In this document: positions 1-5,757 of the stretch, in pieces | Position numbering within the stretch: the first letter of the stretch is position 1 | Layout: each line of letters starts with the position of its first letter | DNA from: a bacterium | GTDB lineage: Bacteria > DYJV01 > JALVYZ01 | Direction of reading: 5' to 3' | Length of the DNA: 5,757 nt | NCBI GenBank assembly: GCA_027037705.1 | Contig: JALVYZ010000470.1 | Span: 1-5,757 of the forward strand | The notes under the pieces: model-generated | Told to the model about the DNA's origin: nothing | What the model saw: the letters and a program-made list of their open reading frames with translations, nothing else | Databases searched by the model: none | Program-made: the position numbers and the translations under genes

Positions 1-1674
1 AAAAGCTCTCATCTTGTTATTGAAAATTTATATGAAACTTCATTCCTTGAACATATGTTTCTTGAAACAGAATCAGGTGTTGGATACTATGATGAAAAAG
101 AGGATAAAATTGTTATAATTTCATCAACTCAGAATATCCATTACAAGAGAAAAGAGATTTCAAGAATGTTGAATCTGCCTGAGGACAAAATAAAAATAAT
201 TCAGGCAGTTACAGGAGGAGGTTTTGGAGGTAAACTTGATGTTACTGTTGAAGGATGGATTGCCCTTGCTGTGTATCACACAAAAAAGCCTGTAAAAATA
301 ACATTAACAAGGGATGATAGTTTTCTAACCAATACAAAGAGACATGCTTTAAAGTTTTATTATACATCCTATGTTGATAAGAATGGTTATCTAAAGGGGG
401 TAAAGGTAAAAATAGTTGGAGATACAGGAGCTTATGCATCTTATGGTGCTACTGTATGTTTAAGAGCTGCTGTGCATTGCACAGGACCGTATAATGTTCC
501 AAATGTATATGCAGAAAGTATAATGTGTTATACAAATAATCATCCATGTGGTGCAATGAGAGGGTTTGGTATACCTCAGATAGCTTTTGCTCATGAATCA
601 CAGATGGATGAAATTGCAGAAGCACTAAACATTGACCCATTTGAGTTGAGAATGAAAAATGTATTGAAAAAAGGAGATTTAACAGCAACAGGACAGAAGC
701 TAAATTACAGTGTGGGAATTGGAAAAACTCTTGAAAAATTAAAACCTGTTTATGATGAATTAAAAAAAAGTGGTAAAAAGGGTGTAGGTATTGGGTGTAT
801 GTATTATGGTATTGGAAATACAGGAATCCCAAATCCTTCCACAATTATTGTTGAATTAAGCACAAATGGAAAGATTGTTGTACATTCTGGAGTGTGTGAG
901 ATTGGGCAAGGCTCTGACACTATTTTATACCAAATAGCACTTGAAACATTGAAAATATCTCCTGATTTAATTGAATTTACACAAAAAGATACTTCAATTA
1001 CTGAAGATGCAGGTTCAACTTCAGCAAGCAGGCAAACATATATTTCTGGAAAAGCATTGTATGAAGCATGTGTACAGATGAGAGAATTTTTAGAAAGAGA
1101 AAATTTTTATTCAGGAAAAAGGTCTTTAAAGGATATATTCAGAGAAAAAGGAAATGTTAAGTTTACAGGATATTTTGACCCTCCAACTTCAAAACTTGAC
1201 CCTGAAACATCTCAAGGAGTTCCCTATGCAACCTATGCTTTTGCCACTCATATTGCAGTTGTGGAAGTTGATGAGATTACAGGATTTACAGATGTAAAAG
1301 AGGTTTATGCCTGCCATGATGTTGGAAAAGCAATTAATCCTGTTCTTTTAAAAGGTCAGGTAAACAGTGGTGTTGCAATGGGAGTGGGTATGGCATTAAT
1401 GGAAAAGTTTGTTCCAAAGGAGACAGAAAACCTGCATAAATATTATATCCCAACAAGTATGGACATGCCTGAAGTTAAAGCATTCTTTGTTGAAGATGAG
1501 GAACCAACAGGTCCTTATGGGGCTAAAGGTATTGGAGAGCCTGCTTTAATTCCAACTGCCCCTGCAATAATCAATGCAATTAAAGACTATACAGGTGTAA
1601 GGGTATATAAACTCCCGGCGGATATTGAGACATTGAAAATGAGTCTGGAGTCGGGAGTGCGGAGTCGGGAGTAA
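1..1674 (+). CDS. Molybdenum hydroxylase large (molybdopterin-binding) subunit, xanthine/nicotinate dehydrogenase type, 5'-truncated by window edge
   Basis: Catalytic Mo subunit of a xanthine dehydrogenase-family hydroxylase, which inserts a water-derived oxygen into an N-heterocycle. The frame is open from base 1 and begins inside the conserved ETSFLEHMFLETE stretch, so the ATG at 55 is internal. About 190-200 N-terminal residues should be missing for a usual ~750-residue subunit. Numbered from base 1, the visible landmarks are GGGFGGK (72-78), AMRGFG (185-190, the substrate-pocket Arg/Phe region), EIGQG (300-304) and DAGSTSASRQ (336-345, molybdopterin contacts). GAKGIGE ends at Glu513, which matches the catalytic Glu of the family. 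Both Mo-binding halves are in one chain, whereas E. barkeri nicotinate dehydrogenase splits them into two proteins. The neighbouring ena and hnr make nicotinate or a relative the likely substrate, but this is inference; purine or other heterocycle hydroxylases look alike. The last ~10 residues (SLESGVRSRE) come from a 7-bp repeat. FAD and 2Fe-2S partners are not in view. Confidence 0.93.
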   Translation, partial: KSSHLVIENLYETSFLEHMFLETESGVGYYDEKEDKIVIISSTQNIHYKRKEISRMLNLPEDKIKIIQAVTGGGFGGKLDVTVEGWIALAVYHTKKPVKITLTRDDSFLTNTKRHALKFYYTSYVDKNGYLKGVKVKIVGDTGAYASYGATVCLRAAVHCTGPYNVPNVYAESIMCYTNNHPCGAMRGFGIPQIAFAHESQMDEIAEALNIDPFELRMKNVLKKGDLTATGQKLNYSVGIGKTLEKLKPVYDELKKSGKKGVGIGCMYYGIGNTGIPNPSTIIVELSTNGKIVVHSGVCEIGQGSDTILYQIALETLKISPDLIEFTQKDTSITEDAGSTSASRQTYISGKALYEACVQMREFLERENFYSGKRSLKDIFREKGNVKFTGYFDPPTSKLDPETSQGVPYATYAFATHIAVVEVDEITGFTDVKEVYACHDVGKAINPVLLKGQVNSGVAMGVGMALMEKFVPKETENLHKYYIPTSMDMPEVKAFFVEDEEPTGPYGAKGIGEPALIPTAPAIINAIKDYTGVRVYKLPADIETLKMSLESGVRSRE

Positions 1675-2121: not shown

Positions 2122-3273
2122 ATGGGAGATTTAATTATTAAAAATATTGGGGTAATTTTTACAGGAGATATTAATAATCCTGTTTCCACAAAAAAGGTTA
2201 TAGTTATAAAAAATGGAATTATCAAAGAGATTACAGATGAAGTGCCTGCAAATACAGAAGGATTTAAAGTTATTGATGCAAATGGTATGACTGTTACTCC
2301 AGGATTAATTGATTCTCATGCTCATCCTGTTTTTGGAGATTTTACTCCAAGGCAGAAGATGTTGAATTTTATTGATTCATCTCTCCATGGAGGTGTTACA
2401 ACAATCATTTCTGCAGGAGAAGTTCATCTTCCAGGAAGACCTAAAGATAAAATTGGCGCAAAAGCACTTGCAATTCTTGCATACAAGTCTTTTGAAAATG
2501 CAAGACCATCAGGAGTAAAGGTTTTAGGAGGTGGACTTATTCTTGAAAAGGGAATGACTGAAGAGGATTTTAAAGAACTTGCAGAAATTGGAATTAATCA
2601 TGTTGGTGAAATAGGACTTGGGAGCGTAAAAGGTGGAGATGAAGCTGCAGAAATGGTTAAATTAGCAAAAAAGTATGGAATGACAGTTATGATGCATGTT
2701 GGAGGAACTTCAATCCCTGGAAGTTCAACAATTACCTATGAGGATGTTGTGATGGTTCAACCTGATGTTATGTGTCATTTAAATGGGGGACCAACTTCTA
2801 TTTCTTATGAAAATGTTGAAAAATTAATAAAAGAAACTGATTTTACAATTGAGATTGTTCATTGTGGAAACATGAAAATGGCAATGAAAATTCTTGAGCT
2901 TGTTAATGAACTGAAATGCTATGATAGGGTTATTCTTGGAAATGATGCTCCTTCTGGAACAGGGGTTATCCCTCTTGGAATATTGAGAATGATTAATTTT
3001 GTATCATCAATTGGAGAAATTCCTGCTGAAATAGCAATATGTATGGCTACTGGAAACACAGCAAAGGTGTATAAATTGAACAGAGGAATTATTGCAGAGG
3101 GAAAAGAGGGAGATATTGTTATTATGGATTCTCCAATGGGTTCTGTTGGTAATGATGCAAAAACAGCAATAGAAGCAGGTGATATTCCTGGAGTTGCAGG
3201 AGTAATTATTGATGGAAATTTAGTTGTATCCAAAAGCAGAAATACTCCACCTTCTGTGAGGAAAATTTCATGA
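2122..3273 (+). CDS. ena: Enamidase (amidohydrolase superfamily), opens the 6-oxotetrahydronicotinate ring
   Basis: A 383-residue cytosolic metal-dependent hydrolase closely resembling E. barkeri enamidase, which hydrolyses 1,4,5,6-tetrahydro-6-oxonicotinate to 2-formylglutarate and ammonia. Landmarks run in the amidohydrolase order: a small N-terminal beta domain, GLIDSHAH with His66 and His68, Glu163 in VGEIGLG at the position where many relatives carry a carboxylated Lys, His192, His219 and Asp275 in GNDAPSGTG. The C-terminal GKEGDIVIMD segment rejoins the beta domain. Stretches I recall as typical of enamidase rather than dihydroorotases or imidazolonepropionases are GGVTTIISAGE, NARPSGVKV, GGTSIPGSST, NDAPSGTGVIPLGI and the SRNTPP tail. 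Length is normal and no key ligand is missing. It is the first gene of the operon, has an AGGAGG site, and its stop overlaps the hnr start as ATGA. The substrate may be a close analogue of the nicotinate intermediate, since only homology supports it. Confidence 0.9.
   Translation: MGDLIIKNIGVIFTGDINNPVSTKKVIVIKNGIIKEITDEVPANTEGFKVIDANGMTVTPGLIDSHAHPVFGDFTPRQKMLNFIDSSLHGGVTTIISAGEVHLPGRPKDKIGAKALAILAYKSFENARPSGVKVLGGGLILEKGMTEEDFKELAEIGINHVGEIGLGSVKGGDEAAEMVKLAKKYGMTVMMHVGGTSIPGSSTITYEDVVMVQPDVMCHLNGGPTSISYENVEKLIKETDFTIEIVHCGNMKMAMKILELVNELKCYDRVILGNDAPSGTGVIPLGILRMINFVSSIGEIPAEIAICMATGNTAKVYKLNRGIIAEGKEGDIVIMDSPMGSVGNDAKTAIEAGDIPGVAGVIIDGNLVVSKSRNTPPSVRKIS
3258..3261 (+). promoter_or_regulatory. 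Ribosome binding site of hnr inside the end of ena (GAGG)
   Basis: GAGG lies 8 nt before the ATG at 3270, within the last codons of ena. Together with the ATGA overlap it supports translational coupling and this start for hnr. Confidence 0.7.
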
Positions 3274-4763
3274 TATATATAAATGATAATTGCAAAAAAT
3301 GCGGAAACTGCGAAGAAATTTGTCTTGTTGATGCAATAAAGATTGGAGATAAAAGAGCTGAAATAGATAGTAGTAAATGCGTTGAGTGTGGCGCATGTGT
3401 AAAAGTATGTAAATTTAATGCAATAGAGCTTAAAAAGATAATAGAAGGAGTTGTTTGTGAAAACTGTCCAATCCAGTGCATAATTAAAGAACAGGGAATT
3501 GGAGCATGTCAGAGGTATAAGAATGAAAATGGAGAGATTAAAAGAATACGAAGGGTTGTGTCTTATGAAGAGATAGAATCAATTGTAAGAGAGATAAATA
3601 CTCCAGAGATAGATAAACCTCTTATTACAGGAATTGGAGCTGGGACAACATATCCTGATTTTAAACCATCTCCTCTAATAGTTAAAGGTCTTGTAAATGG
3701 AGTTGATGTGGTTACTGTTGTTACAGAAGCTCCTTTGAGCTACAGCGGGATAACATTAAAAATTGATACAGACAGATTTATAGGAAATGAGGGGAAAAAG
3801 GTTTACATTATTTCAAAAGGGAAAAAATATGCAGGTCATGTGTGCAGAGAAGAGTATGGTTCTAAAATGATTTCAATAGGTGGGGTTAATATACTTACTG
3901 GCAAAGATGGATTGTGGGTGGCAAAGTTTATCTTTGATATTTTAAGAGGCAAAAGGAGAAAAATAGTTGTTGAAGATGGAGCAGAGATTGAGGTTAAATT
4001 GAATGAAGCTCCTGTTATTAATGGAGAAAAGGACAAAATAATGAGAATTGGATGTGGAAGCGCAACACTTGGTTTATTTGCTCCATATTTGAAAGAACTT
4101 GCTGATGAGGTAATTGTTCTTGATGGACATATTGTTGGATTGCTTACAGAACATGCTGCAGGAAGGGCTCTTGGATTAAAATATTCAGGAATTAAATTAA
4201 ATGCATTTAAAAGTACTCCTGGAAGATATTTTGTTGAAAAAGGAGATGGATGGGGTGGAACAAATATAAAAGACCCTCTAAAAATTGTTAATATGGCGGA
4301 TTCAGATTTAGATGAGGGATTAACTCTGTTAATCCTTGATACAACTGCAACGAATTATGCTTTTTATAAATTTGAAAAAGGAGAATTTAAAGAGGTTGAG
4401 CCAACAGATAAGATTAAAAATTTTATAAAATTAATGAGAGAAAATTGTGAAAAGTCAAAAGTTACAGCAACTTTTTCAGGTGGAGTTGGCGGGTCTGCAA
4501 GAGCAGGAGTTACTAAAAATCCAATAAAGTTAACTCAAGCTGTTCATTCTAATGATGTGAGATTAACAATTGGTGGAGCAAAACCATTTATATATCCAGG
4601 TGGTGGAATAAATTTTATTGTTGACTTAAATAAGGTTTTACATGGAAGTATATATTTAAGCCCTACCCCTTCATTTATTGTGCCTGTTGAATTCACAATG
4701 ACTGAAAAAACATTTAAAGAGATTGGCGGGCATATAGATTATGTTGTTGAACTTAGAAGATAA
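3270..4763 (+). CDS. hnr: 6-hydroxynicotinate reductase, ferredoxin-domain iron-sulfur protein
   Basis: A 497-residue protein matching the 6-hydroxynicotinate reductase family, which catalyses the ferredoxin-dependent reduction of 6-hydroxynicotinate to 1,4,5,6-tetrahydro-6-oxonicotinate. The N-terminus is a two-cluster bacterial ferredoxin domain, with Cys8/11/14/18 and Cys37/40/43/47 in CxxCxxCxxxC spacing, good for two 4Fe-4S clusters. A further set follows at once, Cys63, Cys66, Cys70 and Cys80, and could hold a third cluster. The remaining ~400 residues form the family-specific part, with Gly-rich stretches (GIGAGTTYPDF, GCGSATLGLFAP, SGGVGGSARAG, YPGGGINF) that may bind substrate or a flavin; I cannot identify a standard cofactor motif there. 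It has no signal peptide or membrane segment. The start overlaps the ena stop by 4 nt and the 3' end overlaps the next gene by 23 nt. Adjacency to ena, the next enzyme in the pathway, strongly supports the call, though the exact ring substrate is inferred. Confidence 0.87.
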   Translation: MIYINDNCKKCGNCEEICLVDAIKIGDKRAEIDSSKCVECGACVKVCKFNAIELKKIIEGVVCENCPIQCIIKEQGIGACQRYKNENGEIKRIRRVVSYEEIESIVREINTPEIDKPLITGIGAGTTYPDFKPSPLIVKGLVNGVDVVTVVTEAPLSYSGITLKIDTDRFIGNEGKKVYIISKGKKYAGHVCREEYGSKMISIGGVNILTGKDGLWVAKFIFDILRGKRRKIVVEDGAEIEVKLNEAPVINGEKDKIMRIGCGSATLGLFAPYLKELADEVIVLDGHIVGLLTEHAAGRALGLKYSGIKLNAFKSTPGRYFVEKGDGWGGTNIKDPLKIVNMADSDLDEGLTLLILDTTATNYAFYKFEKGEFKEVEPTDKIKNFIKLMRENCEKSKVTATFSGGVGGSARAGVTKNPIKLTQAVHSNDVRLTIGGAKPFIYPGGGINFIVDLNKVLHGSIYLSPTPSFIVPVEFTMTEKTFKEIGGHIDYVVELRR

Positions 4764-5562
4764 GGGAACTTTTATTCAAATTGGACCTGCAAATTTAGTT
4801 GTTAATGTGAAAAAAAATGGGAAAAACCTTAAAGAGGCAGAAGAGGGATGTGTTGAAAAGATAAAAGAGATTTTTGCTGAACTCACAATGTTTAAAGATA
4901 TGTTAAAATTAAAAGCATGTTATCTGAATTTAAATAATAAAAAGATTCCAGATGTTATTTTTAAAACAGTTAGCAGTGCAAAGTTTATTGATGAAAAAGA
5001 GTTAACTCCAATGAGTGCAGTGGCAGGAGCTGTTGCTGAGACTGTTTTAGAATGGATTAAGGACAAATTTGAATATGAGACTATAACAGTTAATAATGGT
5101 GGAGATATTGCCATTGATTTTAACGATAGAATAAGTTTGCAGGTTGCAAATTTGAAAAAATTTTTAATTGTAAACAACAGCATAAAAGGTATTGCTACAA
5201 GTGGTTTTGGAGGAATTAGTTTGTCTAAGGGAATAGCTGACAATGTAACTGTATTTGCAAAAAGTGCTTCAATTGCTGATGCAGCAGCTACTTTTATTGC
5301 AAATAATGTTAGGTTGGAAAAATGCAATTCTGTGGATTACTGTTTTGCAGAAGAAATTATTGATAATTGTGATATTGAGGGAGAATTGGTTGTTAAAGAT
5401 ATTAAAAAAATTTCAGATAATGAAATAATTTATGCTCTTAAAAATGGGCTAAGGTATGCTGAAAAATTGGTTAATGATAATAAAATCTTTGGAGCAATTT
5501 TAAATAAAGGGAAATTTTATTATTTTACAAGGGGATTGAAAAATTTTATCAGGGAGGTTTAA
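4741..5562 (+). CDS. UPF0280 family protein (ApbE-like fold), function unknown
   Basis: A 273-residue protein of the UPF0280 family, which is related in fold to ApbE, the FAD:protein FMN transferase. Visible family blocks are TPMSAVAGAVAE (89-100), VNNGGDIAI (117-125), GIATSGFGG (150-158), GIADNVTVFAK (164-174) and SIADAAATFIANNV (177-190); the ADAAAT block resembles the metal/flavin-binding C-terminal motif of ApbE. No signal peptide is seen, in contrast to many exported ApbE proteins. The ATG at 4741 lies 23 nt inside hnr and has only a weak upstream GCGGG (4726-4730), so translation probably depends on ribosomes finishing hnr. The TTG codons at 4744 and 4747 are alternative starts; later ones would cut the first beta strand. 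Its lock-in with hnr suggests a role in the reductive step, perhaps cofactor handling or maturation, but this is inference and no activity can be assigned from sequence. Confidence 0.85.
   Translation: MLLNLEDKGTFIQIGPANLVVNVKKNGKNLKEAEEGCVEKIKEIFAELTMFKDMLKLKACYLNLNNKKIPDVIFKTVSSAKFIDEKELTPMSAVAGAVAETVLEWIKDKFEYETITVNNGGDIAIDFNDRISLQVANLKKFLIVNNSIKGIATSGFGGISLSKGIADNVTVFAKSASIADAAATFIANNVRLEKCNSVDYCFAEEIIDNCDIEGELVVKDIKKISDNEIIYALKNGLRYAEKLVNDNKIFGAILNKGKFYYFTRGLKNFIREV
5552..5557 (+). promoter_or_regulatory. Ribosome binding site of the AA_synth gene (GGGAGG)
   Basis: GGGAGG lies 6 nt before the ATG at 5564, inside the last codons of the UPF0280 gene. It supports the start at 5564 and independent as well as coupled initiation. 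Confidence 0.85.
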
Positions 5563-5563
5563 G

Positions 5564-5757
5564 ATGATAAAAATAATAAAATATTTTTTAATTTATGAAG
5601 AAATTCTTGAAGAACAGGGGAAAAAACTTGAAAAGCCATTAAAAAAGGTTGCTTCTGGTGTTGTTATAAAAAATCCATTTGCAGGAAAGTATGTTGAAGA
5701 TTTAACAGAATTAATGGATTTTGGCGAAAAGATGGGAGATGAGCTTGCTAAAAAAGC
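5564..5757 (+). CDS. AA_synth (DUF1185, 'amino acid synthesis') family protein, N-terminal part, cut by window edge
   Basis: Only the first 64 codons and 2 nt are in view; the family is usually about 190-200 residues. The translation opens MIKIIKYFLIYEEILEEQGK, and further on reads VVIKNPFAGKYVEDLTEL followed by GEKMGDELAKK. This reproduces the N-terminal signature of the PF06684 family (a charged helix, then V(I/V)xNPFAGxYVEDL and a GxxLGxxLxxx helix). The family name 'amino acid synthesis' is not backed by a known reaction. It starts 1 nt after the UPF0280 stop with a strong GGGAGG site, so it belongs to the ena-hnr operon. I recall UPF0280 and AA_synth genes near hnr-like genes in other bacteria, which would make this a conserved module, but I cannot check that here. 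Confidence 0.85.
   Translation, partial: MIKIIKYFLIYEEILEEQGKKLEKPLKKVASGVVIKNPFAGKYVEDLTELMDFGEKMGDELAKK

Follow-up and report, generated by a model that had tools for sequence, protein, structure and literature searches.

The locus examined here, a 5,757-nucleotide stretch of bacterial DNA (the window, on contig C470 of genome G000), raises the question of what proteins of the families UPF0280 and AA_synth do beside an enamidase-like amidohydrolase (Ena) and a 6-hydroxynicotinate reductase-like protein (Hnr). A first-pass annotation of the same DNA described both families as having no assigned reaction and suggested that they could be accessory or maturation factors for Hnr, or enzymes acting on the enamide or aldehyde. 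Neither family is blank: UPF0280 corresponds to COG2122, with an ApbE fold and genetic evidence from homocysteine synthesis, and AA_synth is DUF1185, which includes TgnF and HcdD. Comparison of hnr loci separated the two genes. The central new point is that UPF0280 keeps company with Hnr, and AA_synth with the hydrolase that opens the ring; maturation is thus the favoured half of the earlier proposal for UPF0280, which tracks Hnr, and action on the product for AA_synth, which tracks the enamidase. The four genes are:

2122..3273, plus strand: Ena, enamidase-like amidohydrolase (Amidohydro_1, 3.9e-15)
3270..4763, plus strand: Hnr, 6-hydroxynicotinate reductase-like, 497 amino acids (39-43% identity to annotated 6-hydroxynicotinate reductases)
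4741..5562, plus strand: Hnr-type UPF0280 (COG2122-like), ApbE-like fold (NF003322, 2e-54; 2O34 profile, 1e-17; clade support 100/100)
5564..5757, plus strand: AA_synth (PF06684/DUF1185), first 64 codons (62.4 bits against a Pfam cut-off of 27, E 5e-17; remainder on contig C96, L001:128-506)

The open reading frame (ORF) coordinates confirmed the tight spacing described at first pass. The ena and hnr genes overlap by 4 nt (ATGA, 3270-3273), hnr and UPF0280 overlap by 23 nt (4741-4763) given a UPF0280 start at ATG 4741, and a 1-nt gap (5563) separates UPF0280 from AA_synth. Alternative UPF0280 starts at TTG codons 4744 and 4747 would trim the longer overlap slightly. GGGAGG forms a strong ribosome-binding site for AA_synth, which is cut by the end of C470; contig C96 of the same genome shares an exact 127-bp match with that end and completes a 190-amino-acid protein scoring 214 bits. 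Hnr was named for its identity to annotated reductases, which extends over 85-91% coverage. Ena, a putative enamidase for 1,4,5,6-tetrahydro-6-oxonicotinate, showed 57-59% identity to Ena of loci L033-L035.

Association of UPF0280 with hnr

Beyond the window, Hnr loci were drawn from three sources: contigs of metagenome-assembled genomes (MAGs), 72,556 plasmids and 398 Bacillota genomes. A first scan of genome contigs used narrow patterns and returned only four Hnr loci. The 47 evaluable loci (the window itself, 4 from MAGs, 26 from plasmids and 16 from Bacillota) covered Bacillota, Desulfobacterota, two further MAG lineages and Proteobacteria plasmids. The locus L005/L036, where sequence stops 275 bases past hnr, was left out of the adjacency count. 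Fourteen of the 26 hnr plasmids were read in detail and the others were judged from match coordinates.

The first-pass annotation had suggested counting UPF0280 and AA_synth in Hnr neighbourhoods, with a majority of homologues lacking both as the refuting outcome. The opposite was found: UPF0280 directly adjoined hnr in 45 of the 47 loci (the window, all 4 MAG loci, all 26 plasmids and 14 of the 16 Bacillota loci). The order hnr-UPF0280-AA_synth was kept in all four further MAG loci with enough flanking sequence (L033, L034, L035 and L096). All 26 plasmids with hnr carried UPF0280 directly downstream and AA_synth beside UPF0280. UPF0280 was found on 27 plasmids, namely these 26 and one more, in which a stub of the hnr C-terminus lies just upstream, beside IS1071. 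Among the Bacillota, hnr occurred in 14 genomes at 16 loci; UPF0280 was adjacent at 14 of these, 3.1 kb away at L091 and absent within 8 kb at L093.

When an Hnr-type UPF0280 profile was run against the Bacillota genomes, with a match class of more than 200 bits, 15 matches of 205-264 bits fell in exactly the 14 genomes with hnr, and all remaining matches scored 108 bits or less. AA_synth was present in 16 of these genomes, the 14 with hnr and two others. A tree of 34 Hnr-type and 13 other UPF0280 sequences separated the two types with support of 100/100. The linkage of hnr, UPF0280 and AA_synth is far beyond chance. The 47 loci are not independent trials, because they share ancestry and are subject to transfer. 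UPF0280 is very probably a dedicated partner of Hnr.

The L055 plasmid, from Hydrogenophaga sp. BPS33, contains IS1071-flanked repeated segments with UPF0280 and the hnr C-terminal stub only, and UPF0280 stands at four places on it. The L093 segment (8139-12064) contains a divergent Hnr paralogue in a 597-residue ORF, two ena-like genes and a permease-like ORF; neither UPF0280 nor AA_synth lies nearby.

Separation of UPF0280 and AA_synth in rearranged clusters

In most Bacillota clusters ena adjoins hnr, and rearranged clusters indicate which gene follows which enzyme. At L080, L087 and L084 the immediate neighbour of hnr is UPF0280, and that of ena is AA_synth. In genome G681, AA_synth lies beside a second copy of ena, and UPF0280 lies beside hnr (L164). 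The second locus of genome G494 (L091) has UPF0280 and lacks ena and AA_synth. In genome G491 (L162), hnr is gone and only 87 residues are left of UPF0280; ena and AA_synth are both intact there, with downstream genes after them. In other organisms AA_synth adjoins amidohydrolases or other hydrolases in operons of ring-degradation type. AA_synth is not an Hnr factor. That role was considered and rejected, with relatives of AA_synth on 386 plasmids, hnr on only 26, and AA_synth following Ena in rearranged clusters.

AA_synth would work together with ring opening, probably on an enamine, enol or aldehyde from Ena. RidA enamine deaminases have the same general fold as the AA_synth structures, and this RidA-like fold, together with the enamine or aldehyde that Ena would release, makes a role at the ring-opening step plausible; we consider the chances of such a role evenly balanced. 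The known AA_synth structures show a chorismate-mutase-like fold (PMC2954203). The members TgnF (trigonelline) and HcdD (7-hydroxycoumarin) belong to other ring-degradation operons; TgnF is reported to stimulate a dehydrogenase, HcdD to be without such an effect. Parting AA_synth (ring opening) from UPF0280 (Hnr) sharpens the hypothesis for DUF1185, a family known from several ring-degradation operons.

Most hnr clusters among the Proteobacteria plasmids L039-L050 contain a tandem pair of AA_synth genes that differ in subtype. In some, hydantoinase A/B-like genes take the place of a nearby ena.

Resemblance of UPF0280 to flavin transferases

The window UPF0280 scored 184.5 bits with NF003322, below the curated cut-off of 290, and was below cut-off with all four PRK04334 models. 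Several Hnr-type homologues nonetheless carry the NCBI name UPF0280 family protein. An AlphaFold model of the protein (predicted local distance difference test score, pLDDT, 82) aligned with 2O34 (DVU1097) over 211 residues (Z 23.0, root-mean-square deviation 3.0). Ranks 2-20 were all flavin mononucleotide (FMN) transferases or flavin-trafficking proteins (19 structures of ApbE, Ftp or FmnB; Z 16-17.7 over about 205 residues), and the next unrelated structure had Z 8.8. Profile comparison of UPF0280 with ApbE, represented by three sequences only, gave a probability of 96 and P 5e-9, and the alignment paired GGD, TSG and ADxxxT. These motifs lie in the window as follows:

5092..5106, plus strand: NNGGD of UPF0280, paired with the ApbE GGD (alignment and profile comparison)
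5197..5205, plus strand: TSG of UPF0280, with Ser154 paired with the ApbE catalytic Ser (profile comparison) and invariant among the aligned Hnr-type sequences
5275..5292, plus strand: ADAAAT motif of UPF0280 (Asp180, Thr184), aligned to ADALAT of ApbE (both residues invariant; profile comparison)

The invariant Ser154, Asp180 and Thr184 match the catalytic Ser and Asp and the metal-site Thr of ApbE. Conserved residues of ApbE are Ser241, His257 and Asp285; the His serves as general base and as a lock on flavin adenine dinucleotide (FAD), and its replacement by Gly lowers activity and does not abolish it (PMC12052999). Of the three, UPF0280 keeps the Ser and the Asp, which align, and has lost the His together with its loop. 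Pfam ApbE (PF02424) matched 12 of 18 Hnr-type homologues (best 5e-7) against 0 of 13 COG1900-type proteins. The window UPF0280 had no PF02424 match, and no other ApbE was found in the window genome at E 0.001. We do not call UPF0280 an ApbE member because three features of membership are absent: a PF02424 match, the catalytic His and the motif DxxSGA[ST] in the partner. In its manner of working UPF0280 would resemble ApbE. A role as general ApbE replacement was rejected as too broad, the non-Hnr clade being tied to COG1900.

Features of Hnr

We know of no proposed flavin attachment site or maturation enzyme for Hnr. Hnr of Eubacterium barkeri, described in 2006 by Alhapel et al., was reportedly purified with a covalent flavin, two [4Fe-4S] clusters and one [2Fe-2S] cluster. 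The window protein has the following features:

3282..3428, plus strand: N-terminal 2[4Fe-4S] ferredoxin domain (Fer4/Fer4_7 matches; ferredoxin fold Z 9.2)
3456..3509, plus strand: CxxCPxxC-x9-C motif (C63, C66, C70, C80), probable further iron-sulfur (Fe-S) site of presumptive cluster type (kept in at least 97% of 37 Hnr)
4260..4262, plus strand: Thr331 in G-x-G-[WY]-G-[GA]-T, candidate flavin attachment residue, its role a guess (invariant in one alignment, kept in at least 97% of 37 Hnr)

The cysteines of Hnr suffice for two [4Fe-4S] clusters (Fer4 domains) and one more (C63/C66/C70/C80); the N-terminal ferredoxin is absent from proteobacterial members. Among the 37 Hnr, the most conserved Ser and Thr are S157, T167, T331, T359 and S409, and Cys262 and Cys393 are also conserved. 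The sequence context of T331 is most like the end of the known flavinylation motif, which is a hint at most; T167, S157, T359, S409 and C262 are other candidate attachment residues, at the level of a guess. No Pfam family was found in Hnr past the ferredoxin, and the protein has no FMN_bind domain. For the Hnr body of 440 residues, a fold search with a model of pLDDT 70.6 found ferredoxins only, all at the N-terminal end; since that model rests on five sequences, the lack of a known fold means little.

Proposed function and alternative explanations

We propose that this operon serves to reduce and then open the ring of a hydroxylated pyridine, with nicotinate, handled by the E. barkeri route, as the most likely case. 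A molybdenum (Mo) hydroxylase would act first, Hnr would then reduce the ring in a ferredoxin-coupled step, and Ena would hydrolyse the cyclic enamide. From its association, UPF0280 would be a dedicated maturation factor of Hnr. The favoured reading makes it a transferase of the cytosol, derived from ApbE, which would take FAD as donor for the flavin bound covalently to Hnr. The Hnr-UPF0280 partnership is the strong part of this proposal and the flavin chemistry its conjectural part. Whether UPF0280 is a flavin transferase could go either way, and we give the whole explanation, in which an ApbE-derived maturase flavinylates Hnr, an even chance of being correct. Such a strict partner gene would close a gap in Hnr flavin attachment and extend flavinylation beyond ApbE and the known motif.

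Several points weigh against this proposal. UPF0280 has an 18-residue gap where ApbE has an H-I-I-x-P loop with the conserved His. The canonical flavinylation motif DxxSGA[ST] was rejected for Hnr, as it is not conserved and a loose form occurs in 3 of 37 proteins; Hnr also lacks a conserved His for an 8-alpha-histidyl flavin link. Covalent flavin and substrate are, as far as we know, reported only for the Hnr of E. barkeri. The divergent paralogue at L093 has no UPF0280 nearby, and its genome has one beside another hnr; this Hnr may act on another substrate or may borrow its maturase from the second cluster. Co-inheritance of the whole cluster can inflate the association of hnr with UPF0280. 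As for the separation of the two genes, plasmids with hydantoinase-like genes and no nearby ena still have AA_synth after UPF0280. Finally, the sister UPF0280 clade serves the COG1900 homocysteine synthase, and the distant kinship of COG2122 and ApbE is said not to cover the flavin-binding region, with sulfur trafficking proposed (PMC5764234, PMC12068725).

The main rival takes up this last point: UPF0280 would not be a flavin enzyme but would assist Hnr through sulfur trafficking or Fe-S maturation, a role of the kind put forward for its relative MA1715 with COG1900. Homocysteine synthesis from sulfide depends on COG2122, which has a cofitness of 0.98 with DUF39 and has been suggested to act in persulfide modification; MA1715 has been called a sulfur trafficking protein (PMC5764234, PMC12068725). 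All 13 sampled non-Hnr UPF0280 genes adjoin a COG1900 (DUF39) homocysteine synthase gene, and clustering recovered a NIL/ferredoxin gene at 12 of the 13 loci, mostly lying between the two. Hnr is also an Fe-S protein, with Cys262 and Cys393 conserved in addition. However, the conserved residues of UPF0280 are the ApbE set (GGD, TSG, ADAAAT), and the Hnr-type alignment has no invariant Cys, compared to one in the COG1900 type. No sulfur donor is needed for Hnr to reduce the ring, and the Hnr-type clade is nearer to ApbE than the COG1900 type. We regard the sulfur role as unlikely.

The window genome holds one UPF0280 of each type; the COG1900-type gene, on contig C488 (L165:3428-4566, minus strand), has a ferredoxin gene adjoining. 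Hnr as a distant COG1900 relative was rejected, since profile comparison covered only 22-23 columns at P 0.2-0.3. A look-alike, VDVVTxxTxxPxxSxG, was seen between the Hnr body (alignment A3, P0002 residues 85-106) and COG1900 (alignment A8), and was not significant by profile.

A second alternative makes UPF0280 an FAD- or FMN-binding subunit of Hnr, with an electron-transfer or structural role and transfer catalysis lost. The ApbE fold without its catalytic-His loop and the strict one-to-one pairing with Hnr would suit such a subunit, but the metal-motif Asp and Thr and the TSG Ser, needless for pure binding, are still invariant, and E. barkeri Hnr was reportedly purified without a second subunit. 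We consider this alternative improbable. Least probable is that UPF0280 and AA_synth are both pathway enzymes on Ena products, placed beside Hnr by co-regulation only: the clostridial locus L079 does include downstream enzymes, and AA_synth does track Ena and amidohydrolases, but UPF0280 keeps to Hnr where Ena lies apart or is missing (L091, L080, plasmids without nearby Ena) and is degraded where Hnr is lost and Ena stays (G491).

If UPF0280 is a flavin-attaching maturase of Hnr, the idea might be widened. It is possible, if on balance doubtful, that all UPF0280/COG2122 proteins are cytosolic ApbE-derived flavin attachers for ferredoxin-coupled reductases without an FMN-binding domain or known motif, with clades serving Hnr and COG1900. 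On this reading the COG1900 homocysteine/coenzyme M synthases, whose conversion of aldehyde and sulfide to thiol needs two electrons, would be covalent flavoproteins that have so far escaped discovery.

Flanking genes

Upstream of ena, the window contains one further gene:

1..1674, plus strand: Mo hydroxylase large subunit (nicotinate/xanthine dehydrogenase type), C-terminal part, cut by contig start (MoCoBD_1, 1e-72; MoCoBD_2, 3e-61)

Its best NCBIfam profile was selenium-dependent xanthine dehydrogenase, with a score below cut-off because the gene is partial. On C96 (L001:507-1944), AA_synth is followed by yqeB (TIGR03309), and yqeC (TIGR03172) faces it on the opposite strand; both scored over cut-off. 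yqeB and yqeC are maturation genes of selenium-Mo hydroxylases (selenium cofactor), and their position beyond AA_synth suggests that the upstream Mo hydroxylase may be selenium-dependent. The non-coding interval between the Mo hydroxylase gene and ena (1675-2100) is dense in short degenerate tandem repeats, with units GAGTCGG, TTAGTGATTAG, AACTACAAAT and TTTACGCA, which is unusual for bacterial intergenic DNA.

Comparison with known systems

The E. barkeri nicotinate cluster and relatives such as L079 resemble the window in that Mo hydroxylase, Ena and Hnr are clustered in both. The clostridial cluster L079 has the complete gene set of the E. barkeri type. It encodes split Mo subunits with their FAD and 2Fe-2S subunits, Ena, Hnr with UPF0280 beside it and AA_synth, as well as an HIBADH-type dehydrogenase, a serine-dehydratase-type enzyme, a B12 mutase and a PrpF-type isomerase (Hgd-, Hmd-, Mgm- and Mii-like). 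The window differs in its single Mo subunit, unlike the E. barkeri-type split, and no later genes of the route were present on its contig or in 1.9 kb of C96. In nicotinate clusters of Azorhizobium and Bradyrhizobiaceae, two conserved proteins of unknown function were reported without names or a proposed function (PMC3511419); the association was thus partly seen in 2012. No proposed function for UPF0280 or AA_synth in the nicotinate pathway was found in the open-licence literature.

The window AA_synth belongs to the same Pfam family as TgnF, HcdD and the BB2672 and SPO0826 structures, and the operons concerned open N- or O-heterocycles; it is tied to an enamidase, unlike the settings of TgnF and HcdD. 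With the FMN transferases ApbE, Ftp and FmnB (PF02424), UPF0280 shares a whole-domain T-fold (Z 16-18) and the aligned GGD, TSG Ser and ADxxxT. It differs from them in the loss of the catalytic-His loop, in the lack of a PF02424 match for the window protein and in a partner without DxxSGA[ST] or FMN_bind.

The COG2122 proteins of homocysteine synthesis (MA1715, DvMF_0044; 2O34, DVU1097) belong to the same family as the Hnr type (profile P 4e-30, fold Z 23), and their partner, like Hnr, is linked to ferredoxin. They form a separate clade (100/100), and their partner COG1900 has no profile similarity to Hnr. Homocysteine synthesis in sulfate reducers and methanogens requires the UPF0280 family, in a role that is disputed, so work on Hnr could inform both systems.

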